Positions 6,140-51,761 of a stretch of DNA of 64,000 nucleotides are shown here, one piece after another. Position 1 is the stretch's first letter. Every line of letters starts with the position of its first letter. The stretch is from assembly GCA_947168725.1 (NCBI GenBank), contig CAMVNA010000003.1, positions 1-64,000 on the forward strand. The letters run 5' to 3'. The notes beneath the pieces were generated by a model, which saw only the letters and a program-made list of their open reading frames with translations, was not told where the DNA came from and searched no databases. The stretch is from an uncultured bacterium (GTDB lineage: Bacteria > Patescibacteriota > Gracilibacteria > Absconditabacterales > Absconditicoccaceae). Both the position numbers and the translations under genes were made by a program.

Positions 6140-7822
6140 ATGTTTAGAGGGAAGAAATTTCTTAGTTCGATGGCATTTGTGATTGGAGGGTTGATAGGAG
6201 CATCTATGCTTACATATTTTTCGTTTGCTCAAAATTATGATGAGTTGATGGGATCTAATCTGGTTAATAGTATATTCAGCTTTATCATGCCTAAGCATGA
6301 TGTATATTTATATGCTGTAACAGAACCAAATACATATACAATACGTTTTGATGTAAATGGAGGATATTGAGCTATGGATAATTTGGAAATGACTTATGAT
6401 AAAACATGAGTGTATTTACCTCTAAATACACTTGTGAAGGATTGAGCTGTTTTCAATTGATGGAATACTGAACCGTGATGAACATGAACAGGTTTTGCTG
6501 ATTGAGCAGAAGTATTTAATTTGACTACAGAAGATTGAGGAGAAGTACGATTGTATGCACAGCGAGCTGAAGAAATCTCTTATACAATTGAGTATTGTCT
6601 AGAAAATATAGCATGAACGTGATGTGATGTAGTAGAGACATGAGAAGGAACGGCTGCATCTGGTTCTGTCGTAATAGAGACATGAAATGAATATACATGA
6701 TTTACATTGAGGACAGGAAATGCTGTTATTTCTGGTTGAATAGTGCAGTATTATTACACAAGAAATATGTATAATCTGATTGTAAATGATAGAGGTAAGA
6801 TTCCAGTTGATACATGAGTTAAATACGGAGATTCTCTTATATTGCCTGCAGATCCTGAATGGACATGAAATACATTCTTATGATGGTTTGATGGAGATGA
6901 TGAGTATACACATGCATCAACAATGCCAGCTCATAATCTAGAGATAATAAGTAAATGGGATTATGGAGAGCATTCAGTTACGTTTGATACAGATTGATGA
7001 ACTGAGATACCTACGTTCACAGGTAATTATGGAGATCCAGTTCCATATCCAGAAAAACCAACTAAAACGTGATATGAGTTTGTATGATGGGAGCCAGAAC
7101 CCCCAGAAACTATAACTTGAGATGATATTGTAGTTAAGGCTATATGGAAAGAAGTAAGTGGTGGCGGATGATGGAGTGGATGATGATGAAGATGATGAGG
7201 TGGATGAGGATGATGAGATTCATCAGATTCTACGGATTCATCAGATTCACCAGATGAACCTTCATGAGAGCATGGAGCAGCAAAAGATAAAACAGCAGAG
7301 ACAGTAGATAGAAATAGAAATAACATGGAAGTATTGATTGGGTACATGTGGGCACGTAGTAAATGAATTATAGATACAGCGCGAAAAGATTCTGATCCAG
7401 ATGGATATATACCTAGATGAGATATGGCAGAATTAGTAGTAAGGTTTACAGAGAATGTACTAGGAAGAAAAGTTCCACCGATACCTTCATATTGTAAATG
7501 GTGAGATCCAGAAAGAGATTGGTGGAAACCAAATGCGAAAATGTATGCAGAAAAATCTTGTGCATTATGAGTGATGTGAATTAGAATGCAAAACTTCTTA
7601 CCAAACAAAATACTTGATAGGGCTGAATTCTGAACAATCTTATCAAGATTGCTATGGTGAGATAAATATGACGTAGTAGATGCGACAGCAACTAAACTAT
7701 ATTATACGAGGCATCTATGAGCTCTTAATAGAGAATGAATTATGACCCAGATAGACAATCCTGAAGATAGATGGGAGTTGAGAAAATGGGCATGGTTGAT
7801 GTTAATGAGAGTAAAAACTTAA
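6140..7822 (+). CDS. InlB-repeat protein with Gly-rich linker and C-terminal SLH-like anchor
   Basis: This is a 560-residue protein (UGA as Gly). The signal peptide is FRGKKFLSSMAFVIGG then a hydrophobic core to FSFAQ. Residues about 50-340 hold InlB B-type repeats (YTIRFDVNGGYG, FLGWFDGDDEY, GYEFVGWEPE). A linker at about 340-385 is almost pure Gly, then Ser/Asp; many of its Gly codons are TGA. The C-terminal 170 residues (RSKGIIDTARKDSDPDGYIPRG..., then two similar units with ILDRAEF and GIMTQ) look like three S-layer-homology repeats. SLH domains bind secondary cell-wall polymers, so this is probably a wall-anchored surface protein. Its start resembles the neighbour upstream (SIFSFIMPKHDVYLYA). 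Promoter and terminator on both sides make it a single-gene unit. Confidence 0.85.
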
Positions 7823-7831
7823 AATAAAAAG

Positions 7832-7858
7832 GGACTCACGATTATGGGTCCTTTTTTT
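7832..7858 (+). terminator. Intrinsic terminator
   Basis: GGACTCA pairs with TGGGTCC (one G-U) and is followed by a run of T. Confidence 0.85.
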
Positions 7859-7896
7859 GAAAAATAATTTTTATTGAGCAAAAAATAATCAAATTT

Positions 7897-7924
7897 TTGC
7901 ATTATTTTTGTTTGTGTGTATAAT
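7897..7924 (+). promoter_or_regulatory. Promoter of M23 peptidase gene
   Basis: TTGCAT (7897-7902), 16-nt spacer, TATAAT (7919-7924); the start codon is at 7953. Confidence 0.75.
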
Positions 7925-15022: not shown

Positions 15023-15436
15023 ATGCCAACGAAGAATAAAAAACAATTACAACACTATTTTGATGAAAGAAAAGAAATTGAAAAAGAAAAAAGTGAACTA
15101 AAAAAAGAAAGGAGAGAATTAGTTGATAAATGAGATGGATTACAAAAAAGACTTTTAGAAGTCCAACAAAGGCCTGTAAACTCCGTTGAAGAAGAAATTA
15201 AAAAGCAAGAGGAGATTGCGTCTATTAGGAAAGAAATCAAGAAGGTCTCGGAAGAAATTATTAGAGTAGACAAAGAAATTAAGCAGAAAGATGAGGAAAT
15301 TGATTCGGTTAATGAGAAGATTAACGAAATGGTACAAATTGTTATTGATGATGAACATAAATTAGCACAAAAAGAGCAAGAACTAGAAAAGAAGAGAAAT
15401 GAGGAAAAGGTAGAATCAATGATAGAGAAATTGTAA
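15023..15436 (+). CDS. Coiled-coil protein, 137 aa
   Basis: This 137-residue protein is almost entirely charged: E, K, Q, I and L in heptad-like order throughout (for example EIEKEKSELKKERRELVDK and EIKKVSEEIIRVDKEIKQK). There is no signal peptide or membrane segment. One TGA-Gly interrupts the first third. It is most likely a cytosolic coiled-coil structural or adaptor protein; function not recognised. A terminator follows 25 bases after the stop. Confidence 0.7.
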
Positions 15437-15460
15437 AATTATTTATGTGGCTAAAAATAA

Positions 15461-15486
15461 AAGGACCTCGAGAGAGGTCTTTTTTA
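15461..15486 (+). terminator. Intrinsic terminator
   Basis: GACCTC and GAGGTC flank a GAGA loop, followed by T6. Confidence 0.88.
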
Positions 15487-15616
15487 AATCTAAACATTGA
15501 AAACAATTTTGGCATTTATATAATCATATTATATGTTTAAATTTGTTTATAACTCTATAATTCAAAATGCAGTGGAAATATATAGTCCATGTCCCCTCGA
15601 AAATATAGCCTAAAAA

Positions 15617-15711
15617 GGTCCCCCTTTGGTAAGGGGGAAGAAGCGTAGCGACAGGGGGATTTAATCCCTCTGGTTCACTATGTTCACCACCTCCCTTGCC
15701 AAAGGGAGGCT
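15617..15711. repeat. GC-rich imperfect palindrome, MITE/REP-like
   Basis: About 95 bases form a large imperfect inverted repeat centred on TTTAA near 15661. CCCCCTTTGGTAAGGGGGA on the left mirrors CTCCCTTGCCAAAGGGAG on the right, and AGGGGGATT mirrors AATCCCTC. Each arm holds its own smaller hairpin, with GAAGCGTAGCGAC and a GTTCACTATGTTCAC counterpart between. It is much richer in G and C than its surroundings and lies between the terminator at 15486 and proS. I see no open frame in it. Confidence 0.8.
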
Positions 15712-15738
15712 GTATTTATCTTTCAATAGTCAATAATT

Positions 15739-17253
<1,515 letters not shown>

Positions 17254-18515: not shown

Positions 18516-18809
18516 ATGGAGATTTTTAGTATTGGCGCGGCTTTACGTTCTGAGAGAATAAAGACCGCAAGGAGAATCAATCAATGTGAAAGTTATAAAA
18601 AGCTCGCGATTTGTATGGAGAATATTAGCGAGCCAACGGTCCACGGAAACATAATCACTTTTGAGTGTGATGATGATTTCCAGATCGACAAAAACTACAC
18701 TTCTAAGGGATATGAGAAGGTATTCCCGTACAAAAAACAAGGAAATAGAGTTATTATCAGTGTGCCTGATAGCTACATTCTTTCCAAGCCAATTTTGTAC
18801 GGACAATAA
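18516..18809 (+). CDS. Hypothetical protein, 97 aa, no UGA codons
   Basis: This is a 97-residue soluble protein (SIGAALRSERIKTARRINQ..., ending VISVPDSYILSKPILYGQ) with a central acidic turn. All five glycines use GGN. Codons such as GCG, CTC, CGC and CCG are more frequent than in neighbours. It has a promoter and a strong terminator, so it is likely real. No family is recognised. The minus-strand frame over the same bases is taken as its shadow. Confidence 0.65.
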   Translation: MEIFSIGAALRSERIKTARRINQCESYKKLAICMENISEPTVHGNIITFECDDDFQIDKNYTSKGYEKVFPYKKQGNRVIISVPDSYILSKPILYGQ

Positions 18810-18842
18810 ATTAAAAACTTATCCGCTAAATGATTAACCTTT

Positions 18843-18868
18843 GCCCCAGTTTTTACTGGGGCTTTTTT
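18843..18868 (+). terminator. Intrinsic terminator
   Basis: GCCCCAGT and ACTGGGGC perfect stem with a T-rich loop, followed by T6. Confidence 0.95.
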
Positions 18869-18935
18869 CTTGCTTGAAGATAGTTAGCATTTTGTTACAC
18901 TCAACTTATTATATCAAATAATAAAAATCTGGCTA

Positions 18936-31990: not shown

Positions 31991-32107
31991 ATATATTTTA
32001 ATAATAATAGGTAATAACCAGCATCTAGGTATAAAAAATCTCTTGCAATTCTAATTTATTTTATTACAAATTAATTACCTTTTTCACAAAAAAGGCTAAA
32101 CAGGGAA

Positions 32108-32143
32108 AAATATCTCGTCTCCTTGGAGGGGAGATATTTTTTA
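32108..32143 (+). terminator. Intrinsic terminator downstream of recombinase gene
   Basis: AAAATATCTC and GAGATATTTT stem, followed by T. Between the gene end and this site (31991-32107) is a possible long-range stem GGTAAT/ATTACC and nothing else recognised. Confidence 0.78.
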
Positions 32144-32153
32144 TTTCCATAAA

Positions 32154-32183
32154 AAAAGGCTAACATTAAAGTCAGCCTTTTAA
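32154..32183 (-). terminator. Terminator of beta-propeller gene (minus strand)
   Basis: AAAAGGCTAAC and GTCAGCCTTTT stem (one mismatch); reads into a T-run on the minus strand just after the stop at 32203. Confidence 0.82.
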
Positions 32184-32202
32184 TTATGTATTTAATATAT
32201 TA

Positions 32203-34464
32203 TTACAAAGAACCTAGAGTGGCTACTTTACCATCCTTATTTAAGAATCCAGCAAATCATCAAACTAAGAAATAATAAACATCATCAATATATCCCACTC
32301 TAGCATCTTCAAAATCTCGACGATAATCTTTATTAACATCTTCAGGATTATTTATGAAATTATGCGATAATACTTCTTTAATCAATGCTGTTGAAGTTTT
32401 CATGGATAATCCTTTTAATCCAAGGAATGCATCATATTTTTCTTTTCGATTATTCTCACGAGTTCATTCTTCAAGGATTTTTGCGATAACCATTGGCAAT
32501 ACTAATTCCTGTTTATTAGATCTCCATACAAATACTCTAGGATTTTCTAATGCGGGAGTATAACTTGTATCTCATGTAAATTCATATGAAGCGATTACTG
32601 AAACTGCTATGTTCTCAGGATTTACTTTAGTTAAACAATCTTCATATAATCTTTGCTCCTCATTACATTTCTTACTATCATTAGCTTTTGTACATGAATC
32701 AGTCAATTCTGGATCCACATTCTTTGTAATCAATGAGCTACATTTAGTTTCAGCAGTTTCATGATCTTTATAATCAATTTTGTATAAATCAACCTTTGTA
32801 TTATCTTGCTTTAATCCACCATATCCATTATCAGTTGTAGAATATCCAAGTCAGATTAAATATTGAACTCCATTTTTAGCATCTGAATATGGATGTAGAT
32901 ATGTAGAATATCCAGGAATCTTTAATTCTCAAATAATCTTTGGTTTACTTATATCTTCCATATCTACTACGAATAGAGGATCGATATTTTGATATGTAAC
33001 TAAATATAATTTATCTCATATATAGCGTGAAGATTTGAAATTCTCTCCTGGTTCTATATTCAAGAGACTTCATTTTAGTTTCAGATTTTTATCAAGAATG
33101 GATAGATGAGTAGCATTTTGATCATACCAAGTAGTAGTCAGAATTCTGAAGTTTCCATTATCATCTTCATCCATTGAATATTGATTTAATGGAGTACCTG
33201 GAATAATAGTAGAATCTTGATATTCTACAGATTTTCATAAATTAAATTTATGAACTAATGTATTTTCATTTCTATAATATCGAGATGAATAACATCATCT
33301 TAGAGTGCATCTTATAGGATTAGAAAAATATATTGGAGATGGTAGATATAAAGAAGACTGACTCATATGGATTTCGTCTACATTTCCAAATACTAGATTC
33401 TGTTTAGGTGTAGCATCTAAATCACTCAAAGAAATCTGAGAAATTAATGTAAAATTAGGATATATTCCAGTCTCTTTCATAGTATTCTCTGATGGTAATA
33501 AGTAGAAAATACTATCACAAGGCATAGAAATTACTTTTTTGTTGTAAGTCTTTTTTGAGTCTGAACTCTTTTTGAGAGTAATATCAGTTATTTTTGGTTG
33601 CATTTCGTTGAATACAACAGGTTCATCTCTTCGTGCTATATCATACCAGCTTAAATTAACAGAAGAGATGAGATAAAGCTGATCATTAATCATTCTAGCA
33701 TCCTGGAAATATCCATAAACTTCAGTCAGCTTTTCTAATTTTAGATTTTCTAAATCACTGATATCGTATACAATTACAATACTACGATTTGATCATAAAA
33801 CAGATTCGGATTTATTTGCATAACGAGTACCTAAAATAACTAATTTATTTCCATTCAAAAATAACTGGATATCATTTAAGCTGTCTGGAATGTTAATTTT
33901 CGCTGCGATTTCAGCATCTGATAAATCACTTTGAGTAGGAGTTTTGATTATTGAAATATATCTATTATTGTATTCTGCTTCTGAATAGTAGAAAAGATAT
34001 TTTCCATTCGATTTTAAAAGTTCTGGCTCATCTACTCAGATTCTTTGAATATTGGTAGTAGAGAAATCTGTAATTTCTCACATGTCAGCTCATTTGATGG
34101 CAGAATTGGATTTATAATTCATATTAGATGTTTCTGCTACAGCAACATCTTCTACAGCAAAATCTCTTGCACCATTTGTATATAAAGTAATAGGGGCGTC
34201 ATACCAGTGCTCAGAACGTTTAGGATTAAGTTTTTTATATGTTTCTAAAAAATCATTCATAACTTTTTCCATAGATTCGCATGAGTTTACTTTCGTAAAA
34301 GTAATTTTTTCACTCAAATCCTGAGCTTTCTGAACCATTTCTTGTTCAGATTTTTTATTTAGCTCATCTTCAATTTGTGAATCAATGTTTATAGCTGATA
34401 CACTAACAAATCATCATAGTGTAACCACTGAAGCAATAGAAAATAAAATGTTTCTGGCTTTCAT
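32203..34464 (-). CDS. Secreted beta-propeller domain protein
   Basis: This is a 753-residue protein from ATG at 34464. The signal peptide is KARNILFSIASVVTLGGFVSVSA. It matches the family of secreted proteins with a C-terminal beta-propeller distantly related to WD40. Supporting segments are FSTTNIQRIGVDEPELLKSNGKYLFYYSE, QLFLNGNKLVILGTRY, ARMINDQLYLISSVN, SRYIGDKLYLVTYQNIDPLFVVDMED, KIPGYSTYLHPY and YLIGLG. The N-terminal 80 residues are a charged helical region. Function in the family is unknown; probably an extracellular or surface binding protein. A terminator follows. Confidence 0.88.
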
Positions 34465-48331: not shown

Positions 48332-49468
48332 ATGAAAAAAGAATCAATAAAATATTGAGGATTTACTATAATTGAATTGTTGACGGTAACAGTAATCCTT
48401 GGAATACTTATACCATCTATAATCACGATTTATAGTTTTATGATAAAATCAAATAAAGAATTTAATCTTAGACAGACATCTATTCAGCAGTGATATGAGT
48501 TTTTTGAGAAATTAAATATTTTAATGCAGGATTACACGATAGATTATGAGGAATATTTTAATCGTCAGATGGTATGATGTGTAAAAAGCTGATCAACATT
48601 GTTAACATGAGATAATTTTAAGTGGAATGTTTGATTGTCCTGATATTGTACAGAATTTACTGCATATTGAAATGAAAATTCAACAGAAAGTAAAAGACAA
48701 GATTTTGGAATTATGTCATGAATGTATCATGATATATATAATTGTACATCATTAAATCCGAAAAATATTAGATGACTTCGTAATACTGTACAAGTTTCGG
48801 AGTGTTGAAGGTTTTGAAGCAAACAATCTTTTTGACAGTACGCAGCGCTATTTACAGATGTGAAAGAAGCGACATCAGATGATGACGATGAAGAGCTTTG
48901 ACAAATATTAAACAATAATATTTCTGGAGCGATAGCAGATCCTAATAATATTCAAGAATTATATCTTATTTCACATGACTGAAAAAATCGTCTATTTTTC
49001 CGCAGAAAATTAGTTACACAGACATGAAATGTTGCACAATATAAAATCCAAATGCTAAGACTTAGATGATTCGATGCATGACAAAAACACAGTTTTACTG
49101 AAATATCAGAATGAAGCTATGACAGGCATATAGATACACGAGCTTGTGATACTTCAATGTGATTTTATTGAAGTGGTGCAAGTATTTGATGAGCATATGA
49201 GGAATATAATTTACCAGCAGATGTGGATGATTGTTGGGTAGATTTAACATACTGAAACACAAGTGTACCTACACGAAATTTATCTATTTCACCGTTGAAT
49301 GATCCAGATTTATATTGGGCAGATTCATCTCATCAGATAAATCCATATATGAAAATATTATTGGTAAATGGTGTTTATTTGCCAACATCAAATTCGGATA
49401 GTTCTATAAATAGTTTCAATATCCCAATAGAAACGACAATCAATATGAAGGATTCCTATAAGGAGTAG
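48332..49468 (+). CDS. Large type IV pilin-like (prepilin) protein
   Basis: This is a 378-residue protein. The prepilin leader KKESIKYG is cut before FTIIELLTVTVILGILIPSIITIYSFM, with Glu5 (of the mature protein) conserved and the usual hydrophobic helix. The rest is a 340-residue domain with about eight Cys (CVKSGS, YCTEF, YNCTSL, SECWRFG, RACDTS, DDCWVD), unusually long for a major pilin. It is more like a minor pilin or tip adhesin. It would be assembled by PilB/PilC at 42204-44660. The prepilin peptidase is not in this window. Its stop is 155 bases before the large RNA. Confidence 0.85.
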
Positions 49469-49593
49469 TTATAAATACATACAATAATATGATAAAATCT
49501 AATTTTTTTGTAATTTTTAAAATAAAATTTGTACAAAGTTAGAAATATCAATTTTCCATACGGAAAACTTTATCAAAAAAAGTCTTCAAAAAT

Positions 49594-49621
49594 TTGACAA
49601 AATTTTATTTATGAATATAAT
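49594..49621 (+). promoter_or_regulatory. Consensus promoter of the large structured RNA
   Basis: Perfect TTGACA (49594-49599), 16-nt spacer, perfect TATAAT (49616-49621). The transcript would begin near 49628, exactly at the GTCCA that pairs with the 3' part of the element. Before it, 49552-49567 has a TTTTCC/GGAAAA hairpin that may end the pilin transcript. Confidence 0.85.
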
Positions 49622-49876
49622 AAAGTGGTCCACAAGGAAGGGATGCTTTCTACATCCTGGTGTAGTAGTGCATTATTATTACATATCTTGATATGTTCTG
49701 GTAATGAGTTACATTATTACATCAGCATGTAGGAAGTAGATATTTAATACAATGTATGGAGTTTACTTCTCTTAGTGATATTTAATCACTGAGCTTTTCA
49801 GAGAAATTTATTTCTCATAGAAAAGAGTAAATTTGGTTCTTTACTATTGGTAGTATGAAAGTATTATTCATACTTA

Positions 49877-49910
49877 TCATCACTTGCTTATCTTACGATA
49901 GGTAAAGAAT
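49877..49910 (+). repeat. Duplicated RNA module, copy 1
   Basis: Starts TCATCACTTGC, then a small hairpin with loop ACGAT, and ends GGTAAAGAAT. It is preceded by hairpin GTATGAA/TTCATAC (49853-49873) and followed by hairpin GAAAATG/CATTTTC (49913-49932). It is 31 of 34 bases identical to copy 2. Confidence 0.9.
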
Positions 49911-50717
49911 AGGAAAATGATAACACATTTTCTTTGATATAAAGGATCAACAAGTTAATCTTTCAAATAAGCTAGAACAGCAAATTTGAAAAGTATTTGA
50001 GACTAACCCACGAATCAAATCGTAGGAATATCTCATCTTACAAGTCCCCACATGGAAATGTGCAGAGAGATAACTTGAGAATATTTAAAGGTCAGTTTAG
50101 ATTTTATCTAAAGAAGAGTTAAATATTCCATTACCACCTAAGTATTAAGGATAGCCTTATACTAGGTGATAATGTATTCATACATTGATAAGTATTTGCT
50201 TCCTTTCCTTTTTTCTTGCAATGATGGCAAGATTCCTATATCCTTGTGTTGTAGGACTGTACGGTTATTAAAATATAACCTTAACAACTATTTCATAAGG
50301 ATATAGGAAGTGGTCTTTATCATTCCTTGGAGCATTCATTTGTTTCAATTGGTATATCGAAATAGCAATATTTCTATATATTGCACCTGATTTTTATCAG
50401 ATTTATTTTTCTATCTTCGTTTGGTTAATCCATTCGAAGATGTGAAAATTTTATAAATCTGTATGAAGACACAGGGTATTTGGTAGAAAGAAATTTCTGC
50501 TAAGTGATTGAAACAGTTCATCAGTTGATGAAAAGAATAGATGCATCTATTCTTTTACTCCATAGTTATGGGTGAATTTTATATCTATCCTAGATAGTGT
50601 AAGATCATCTCTAATTCTGAAAGTTTTTGTAAGACTAATCACTTACAAAACTCAATTGATTGAATATATGAGTGTATTGTACTTTAGAAATTGGCTCTAA
50701 ACAACGCTGTTTAGGTG

Positions 50718-50751
50718 TCATCACTTGCCTTTCCTACGATAGGTAAAGAAT
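50718..50751 (+). repeat. Duplicated RNA module, copy 2
   Basis: Same 34-nt motif as copy 1, preceded by hairpin CTAAACA/TGTTTAG (50697-50714) and followed by hairpin ATGAAAC/GTTTCAT. The flanking stems differ in sequence but occupy the same positions, and a C-to-U change in the small stem keeps pairing. Confidence 0.9.
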
Positions 50752-51059
50752 ATTATGAAACTAATATTATGTTTCATGATTGATTTCTAAGGTCGACAAT
50801 ATGTCTTTCAGAATTATTTCCATTATGGAATATTCTGGGCAGATTTAGTAAGCACCATTCAATGCCAAAAGTATTGAAAACTTACACTTCAAACATTTGC
50901 TTGTCAAAAGTATTTGGGGATATATTGGAAAAAGTAATTTATTGCTTTTTCGTCGGTATTATATCATTTAGACAGGCTCTAATATGGTAATACTGATAAT
51001 CCATGGAATTGATGCCTCTTCCTTATTTAACATTTGGACACATTGTTCAAGTGTGAGGA

Positions 51060-51095
51060 AGAGTCAGTCTTATAGATTGGCTCTTTTTCTTTAAT
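51060..51095 (+). terminator. Intrinsic terminator of the large RNA
   Basis: GAGTCAGTC and GATTGGCTC stem (with G-U pairs) and loop TTATA, followed by T5. Confidence 0.92.
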
Positions 51096-51164
51096 TTAGA
51101 TTTTTTTATTGTTTATTATTAGTTAATTTGTAATATACCTATAATTTAAATATCAAAAGAAAAT

Positions 51165-51761
51165 ATGCCACTTTGTATATGAGTCGATTGTGATGAAGTT
51201 CTTTCAGAGACATTAGATGAACTATTAAAACTTTCACCACTTAAAGAAAAATGAATTAAAAAATCTGACATAACATCATATGAGATATATGAAGTAGAAA
51301 AAGTTTGATTAACCAAAAAAGAAGCAATTCAAGCGTTTTATTCATTTTTTGAATCTCCAGAATATCGAGAAGCTCAACCAGTTTCCTGAGCATATGAAAA
51401 GTTATATGAACTAAAAGAAGCATGACATAAATTATATGTGGTGACAGCGAGGAATAAACCTTATGAACAGGAAACTAGGAAACGAGTAGAAACCCATTTT
51501 CCATGAATTTTTTCAGATTATTTGTTTATGAATATACATACAGAAAATGAGATCCCAAAATCTCAACTGTGTAAAGATAAATGAATTCAGGTTTTGATAG
51601 ATGATAGTGCAAGAAATATTCACGACATGAACTGAGTTTGAATGCCATGATTTTTATTAGATAAGCCCTGGAATCAGTGAGTAGAAAACACAGAATTACT
51701 ACATAGAGTTTATTCTCGAGATGAAATAGATTTATCACGGTTTTTCAAGCTTGATAACTAG
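51165..51761 (+). CDS. NT5C-type 5'(3')-deoxyribonucleotidase / HAD phosphatase
   Basis: This is a 198-residue HAD protein. Nucleophile motif is CIGVDCDEVLSETLDEL, motif II is YVVTARNKPYEQETRKRV, and the Lys/Asp end is CKDKGIQVLIDDSARNI. It matches the 5'-nucleotidase C type, which dephosphorylates (deoxy)nucleoside monophosphates. It is the first gene after the large RNA, starting 70 bases downstream of its terminator. Many TGA-Gly codons are present. Confidence 0.82.

Follow-up and report, generated by a model that had tools for sequence, protein, structure and literature searches.

The locus and its neighbourhood

Within the window, i.e., the whole stretch of 64,000 nucleotides that was analysed, the interval 49594-51095 of the + strand begins with a sigma-70-type promoter (49594-49621; TTGACA, a spacer of 16 nt and TATAAT, with a match of 12/12) and ends with an intrinsic terminator (51055-51095), which consists of a 16-bp stem (51055-51089) followed by T-rich sequence and is preceded by a further hairpin at 51030-51054. 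The giant structured non-coding RNA assigned to this interval occupies 49628-51095 (+), its 5' end being inferred from the -10 box and its 3' end being set by the terminator. Both promoter hexamers are retained in homologs from three other species (G003, G004, and G005), the spacer being divergent, and the terminator is retained in the two complete ones (G004 and G005). The first-pass annotation of this stretch, made from the sequence alone, had claimed perfect promoter boxes, an intrinsic terminator, and a size of about 1.47 kb; the first two claims held, and the size is backed by the complete homologs, in the absence of transcript data. As a separate observation, the promoter context AAAAA...AAAATTTGACAAA recurs at many loci in many genomes of the bacterial family; it apparently represents a strong promoter in common use, with an upstream element rich in A.

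In the window genome (G000) the RNA gene is present in a single copy and lies between a pilin-like gene and a nucleotidase gene, the latter starting about 70 nt past the terminator on the same strand. The pilin-RNA-nucleotidase order is found in G000 and G005, and different genes flank the RNA in G003, G004, G002, G006, and G001, with those downstream of it in G004 being convergent. Because the neighbouring genes differ between genomes, the RNA is not the leader of one gene. BLAST searches of phages and plasmids and pattern scans of viral contigs returned chance matches only and no convincing relative, and the scan of genome contigs returned, besides single chance matches, only the G004 and G005 records. 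Being single-copy, without a counterpart in the phages, plasmids, and viral contigs that were searched, and with neighbours that change, the RNA is neither a one-gene leader nor an evident mobile element.

The pilin-like gene that adjoins the RNA in the window is located, in G001, G002, G006, and G007, directly upstream of an apparent GspE/PilB-type ATPase gene (assigned by eye; L014-L017), and the gene order is rearranged in the lineage with the window-type RNA. The in-frame TGA counts of the pilin gene range from 2 to 24 within the genus, and to judge by these counts the use of UGA as a glycine codon is apparently very variable between sister species.

Folding, conservation, and the absence of a coding signal

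The MFE of the + strand (1468 nt) is -487.9 kcal/mol, compared with -315 ± 10 for dinucleotide shuffles, which corresponds to a z of about -17, and the reverse strand of the same region gives a z of -12. In windows of 300 nt, the + strand shows a mean z of -7.1 inside the RNA versus -0.3 ± 1.3 elsewhere in the window, and the sense strand folded better than its complement in 10/10 of the RNAs compared. The helix-by-helix table lists about 45 helices of at least 3 pairs, many of them with compensatory changes. One is a perfect palindromic hairpin of 26 nt at 50531-50556, the loop of which is UGCA in the window and a GNRA tetraloop (GCAA, GCGA, or GAAA) in three homologs; GNRA tetraloops are generally regarded as a sign of tertiary contacts. 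The unpaired junction motifs AUCAC and AGAAU are invariant. The sequence UAUGG...CCUAAG was considered as a tetraloop-receptor and dropped, as it is not conserved. Other unusually stable 300-nt folds (z -4.4 to -5.6) occur in the window at 7601-7900 (+), 18601-18900 (+ and -), 15401-15900 (+), 6201-6500 (+), and 32001-32300 (-).

By BLAST, three further species of the genus have homologs, with identities of 77, 75, and 73%, those of G004 and G005 being nearly full length and that of G003 being cut by a contig end. When the MFE structure of the window RNA was placed on these homologs, 86% of the cells paired, and 85 two-sided compensatory cells were counted, where random complementary pairs gave 20 ± 5. 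Most helices are kept, together with the promoter, and the homologs folded singly recovered the same branch order with z values of -10 to -13.5. Several helices, among them 50318-50331/51000-51014 and 50561-50619, are poorly kept. These secondary structures are free-energy predictions for a sequence rich in AT, the homologs are few and the genomes of MAG quality, and the E-values of the covariance models are rough, having been obtained with a short calibration.

The possibility of a UGA-recoded protein gene was rejected, in that the substitutions relative to G004 lack a third-position excess (95/100/99 by codon position, compared with 87/66/147 for the pilin control) and 18/20 internal gaps relative to G004 are not multiples of 3. 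The longest internal ORF, read with table 25 (UGA=Gly), encodes 91 aa and has no Pfam match. Comparison thus shows the RNA to be non-coding and conserved, with stems that covary and are under selection. A repeat element was likewise rejected, the sequence being single-copy in the genome.

No Rfam family accounts for the RNA. A cmscan of the window with Rfam release 15 at the gathering threshold gave no match at 49594-51095, and a scan of 49000-51500 with E up to 10 gave sub-threshold hits only, e.g., McaS at the terminator, which were judged to be chance; the divergent relatives described below likewise have no Rfam match. The window RNA and its relatives have no covariance-model match to ROOL, GOLLD, OLE, raiA, or other Rfam families, and there was no match to the Rfam models of group I or group II introns. 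An identity as RNase P RNA or tmRNA was rejected, as both genes lie elsewhere in the genome, the former at G000:C6:77371-77723 (E 1.4e-31; 99.4 bits, slightly below the 100-bit cut-off) and the latter at G000:C3:74442-74815 (above the cut-off). The first-pass annotation had stated that the stretch holds no plausible protein gene, carries more than twenty hairpins, some of them perfect, and shows no recognisable feature of RNase P RNA or tmRNA, and each of these statements held. It had also named beforehand what would refute its proposal, including an Rfam hit, a conserved protein frame, and a lack of homologs with covarying stems, and none of these three occurred.

Two units in tandem and the divergent relatives

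The RNA is shown by comparison to consist of two homologous units in tandem, and their origin by duplication has strong support, sequence homology having been demonstrated for the leader hairpin and the four-way-junction module only. Unit 1 (D1, 49628-50210) comprises a leader hairpin, a closing helix, and five branches, and unit 2 (D2, 50211-51014) has the branch order of D1 with the first arm enlarged. Both halves run in the same order from the leader hairpin through the closing helix and an arm to the four-way module, and from there through the three-branch module and two successive hairpins to the closing strand.

The D1 leader hairpin (49646-49736) is homologous to the D2 leader or unit-junction hairpin (50233-50309), which contains a 16-bp helix and is preceded by a small hairpin (50214-50232) with the conserved loop AANGAUG. 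A covariance model built from the D2 central hairpin region 50211-50342 only (R2) detects the D1 leader, at the 5' end of the molecule, in 4/4 genomes, with E values of 1.4e-7 to 1.3e-3 at the scale of a whole genome; 92/103 of the D1 cells are paired, with 15 two-sided compensatory changes between the copies. The D2 leader hairpin is followed at 50312-50331 by the invariant sequence GGUCUUUAUCAUUCCUUGGA, the core of which, GGUCUUUA, is seen again in the divergent relatives. The closing helix of D1 is formed by 49737-49760 with 50177-50198, and that of D2, which is one of the poorly kept helices, by 50318-50331 with 51000-51014. The first arm of D1 (49761-49832) has as its counterpart in D2 an arm of 344 nt (50332-50675).

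The four-way-junction module is present at 49836-49947 and 50681-50793, with a 35-nt repeat as its core. An nhmmer profile made from the copy-1 region picks up copy 2 with E values of 1e-9 to 1e-7, and a covariance model built with both copies included (R1) scores copy 1 at 104 bits and copy 2 at 110 bits. The pairs of this module covary within copies and between copies, with 96% of the cells paired and two-sided change in 11/22 pairs, a count that 0/500 shuffles reached. For the three-branch modules that follow (49951-50077 after copy 1 and 50797-50927 after copy 2), sequence comparison detects no likeness between D1 and D2, so that the equivalence of these last modules rests on topology.

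A narrow distribution, inferred from R1 and BLAST alone (4/8 genomes of the genus), proved to be wrong, because a borderline R2 match in G002 (E 0.05) led to divergent relatives in G002, G006, and G001, three of the four remaining genomes. The RNA of G002 is a non-coding tandem of 1.82 kb (z -7.9), the halves of which are 72% identical, with three tandem promoters and a terminator-like hairpin at its 3' end. BLAST with this RNA led to relatives in G006 and, at two loci, in G001, as well as to a promoter at a contig edge in G007. The four-way motif occurs twice in the G006 RNA, which also has a junction hairpin, and the RNAs of the two G001 loci, G001a (about 0.9 kb) and G001b (0.76 kb), are single units. 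The three promoters of G002 (TTGACA-16-TATACT, 91 nt apart) lie on the minus strand of L060 (G002:C6:62500-69500) at 3933-3906, 3842-3815, and 3751-3724, which gives the impression that duplication has raised transcription.

In both one-unit RNAs a predicted duplex links the 5' strand to the strand that immediately precedes the terminator, at -39.2 kcal/mol in G001a and -27.5 kcal/mol in G001b, the minima of 500 shuffles being -20.9 and -18.8, respectively. The end-helix sequences of the two are unrelated to each other. By its position this end-closing helix, predicted to join the 5' and 3' ends, matches the unit-junction hairpin of the tandem forms, and in G001a it also does so by sequence (AAGGAUAUAGGA / UCCUAUAUCCUU). 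Complementary ends, which the first-pass annotation had claimed for the window RNA, are a property of the single-unit relatives and not of the whole window RNA, where the predicted partner of the 5' end lies in the middle of the molecule (50201-50210 and 50310-50315). The tandem-duplicated two-unit architecture and the one-unit relatives had been missed altogether in that annotation.

Each window-type unit seen contains the motif TCACTTG...TAAAG(A/G)A; G002 and G006 have two occurrences each, G001a has one, and G001b has a variant. The motif has zero occurrences in 124 kb of other window sequence on both strands. A model specific to the G002 type (R3) gives no match to the window type, and R1 gives no match to the G002 type even with the filters off. 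The homology of the window type to the G002, G001, and G006 types accordingly rests on R2 matches that are weak genome-wide, on short signatures, and on the shared layout. Comparison shows that the family is fast-evolving and has one-unit and two-unit members within one genus, with the end closure of the one-unit forms being predicted.

Structured non-coding RNAs of 560-626 nt with the same promoter type, 79-86% alike, were observed in two genomes of another genus of the same bacterial family (L095 rc 2126-2752 in G040 and L090 rc 1550-2110 in G032), with a second locus in G040 (G040:C11:411090-411791, 65% identity). They have no Rfam match, and their membership of the family is plausible and has not been shown. 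Two further structured non-coding stretches with the same promoter type, similar 5' motifs, and no Rfam match, L077 1574-2244 (G014, z -8.8) and L082 1540-1920 (G039, z -7.4), could be distant relatives or other unknown RNAs.

Interpretation and rival explanations

The reading that we prefer is that the gene stands alone, has its own promoter and intrinsic terminator, and encodes a giant structured non-coding RNA that most likely acts in trans. We place the probability of this overall reading at roughly 0.6, in the absence of transcript, probing, or biochemical data. The general criteria of a giant ornate bacterial RNA, i.e., non-coding, several hundred nucleotides or more, and with many covarying conserved helices, are met, and it is very likely that the RNA represents an undescribed class that exceeds the best-known giant RNAs of bacteria in size. 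The conserved promoter and terminator are only indirect evidence of transcription as an abundant, discrete RNA, and the end-pairing and the duplication are no more than suggestive of a homo-oligomer of the kind formed by OLE, ROOL, and GOLLD. The evidence supports the first-pass proposal of such a class, possibly larger than those known, and the open-access literature searched (open-access text only) holds no description of such an RNA in this lineage.

Like GOLLD, the window RNA is a bacterial RNA of very large size and many helices that stands alone and has no known function. GOLLD forms a homo-oligomeric RNA-only cage in vitro and has "many members exceeding 800 nucleotides" (PMC12286853), whereas the RNA described here is 1.47 kb long, is chromosomal and absent from the phage sets searched, and has no Rfam match; an internal tandem duplication is unreported for GOLLD in the relevant literature sections. 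With ROOL (Rumen-Originating, Ornate, Large) it shares an ornate multibranched architecture, and the ROOL assembly by kissing loops and A-minor contacts (PMC12286853, PMC12515178) serves as a model for the mechanism inferred here. In contrast to the 16 helical regions of the ROOL monomer (PMC12515178), the window RNA has more than twice as many, and it does not match ROOL in Rfam. OLE (Ornate Large Extremophilic), as a large structured RNA that forms dimers (PMC12286853), is the nearest parallel to a built-in pseudo-dimer, but its dimer is made from two molecules and it has protein partners, whereas the window RNA, again without a match in Rfam, carries two homologous units in one molecule.

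Since OLE, ROOL, and GOLLD form RNA-only dimers, octamers, and 14-mers (PMC12286853; PMC12515178), a scaffold role for the RNA, probably in the form of a built-in pseudo-dimer, is plausible. This part of the reading is inferred by analogy and is tentative, with the balance tilting slightly against it. In this model, each unit would fold into one ornate domain, and D1 and D2 would pack as a pseudo-dimer via loop-loop, tetraloop, and A-rich junction contacts, in a manner resembling the assembly of OLE, ROOL, and GOLLD from separate copies. The one-unit relatives could use the same helix either for self-closure or for joining head to tail, and in the latter case the 3' strand of one molecule would pair with the 5' strand of the next, leading to the same assembly. 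A bolder version, which we would sooner doubt than accept, holds that the basic element of a new class of giant RNA is an end-closed unit assembling head to tail, of which a covalent dimer was made by tandem gene duplication in some lineages, perhaps repeatedly.

The main rival, which remains possible, is that the RNA is the core of an RNP, i.e., a lineage RNA with one or more dedicated protein partners instead of an RNA-only assembly. It would fit a single-copy gene with promoter and terminator, and OLE and HEARO are examples of large RNAs of bacteria with protein partners (PMC12286853); against it, no protein gene is constantly beside the RNA across genomes, although a partner encoded elsewhere is not excluded. 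A trans-acting regulatory RNA, which would bind, e.g., RNA polymerase, ribosomes, or other RNAs and owe its size to repeated binding modules, could draw on the strong conserved promoter, the duplicated modules, and the invariant unpaired AUCAC and AGAAU at the junctions. It is considered unlikely, in that regulatory RNAs seldom need some 45 helices and no known regulatory family matches. About equally unlikely is a selfish passenger borne by a phage or mobile element, after the manner of GOLLD or ROOL. In its favour, GOLLD is described as residing in prophages and phages (PMC12286853), and the copy number and position of the RNA do vary, with two loci in G001 and in G040, but no convincing match was found in the viral contigs, phages, and plasmids searched, the flanking genes are ordinary, and G000 has a single copy.

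Two further explanations are all but excluded. A cis-acting leader or attenuator of the nucleotidase gene is suggested by the proximity and shared strand of that gene and by its recurrence after the RNA in G005; it is largely refuted by synteny, since other, convergent genes lie downstream in G004 and the RNA moves between neighbourhoods, and 1.4 kb far exceeds known leaders. The many perfect inverted repeats could also point to a decayed protein gene or a hairpin-rich DNA repeat without RNA function, for which direct transcript evidence to the contrary is lacking; it is otherwise refuted by the even spread of substitutions over codon positions, the gaps that break the frame, the strand-specificity of folding in all relatives, the compensatory changes, and the absence of other copies.

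On the preferred reading of a stand-alone giant structured RNA, the undescribed class would join a very short list of giant bacterial RNAs, at a size well beyond that of the best-known ones. The genome of its host, an ultra-small, uncultured bacterium in which UGA is recoded, measures about 1.1 Mb, and an RNA of 1.5 kb would hardly be kept in it without a use. The one-unit and two-unit forms constitute a natural experiment on whether large RNAs assemble and in what way. Proteins are well known to have turned quaternary into tertiary structure through gene fusion, and the bolder reading, if true, would mean that RNA has taken the same course, with the monomeric and the fused forms existing in one genus.
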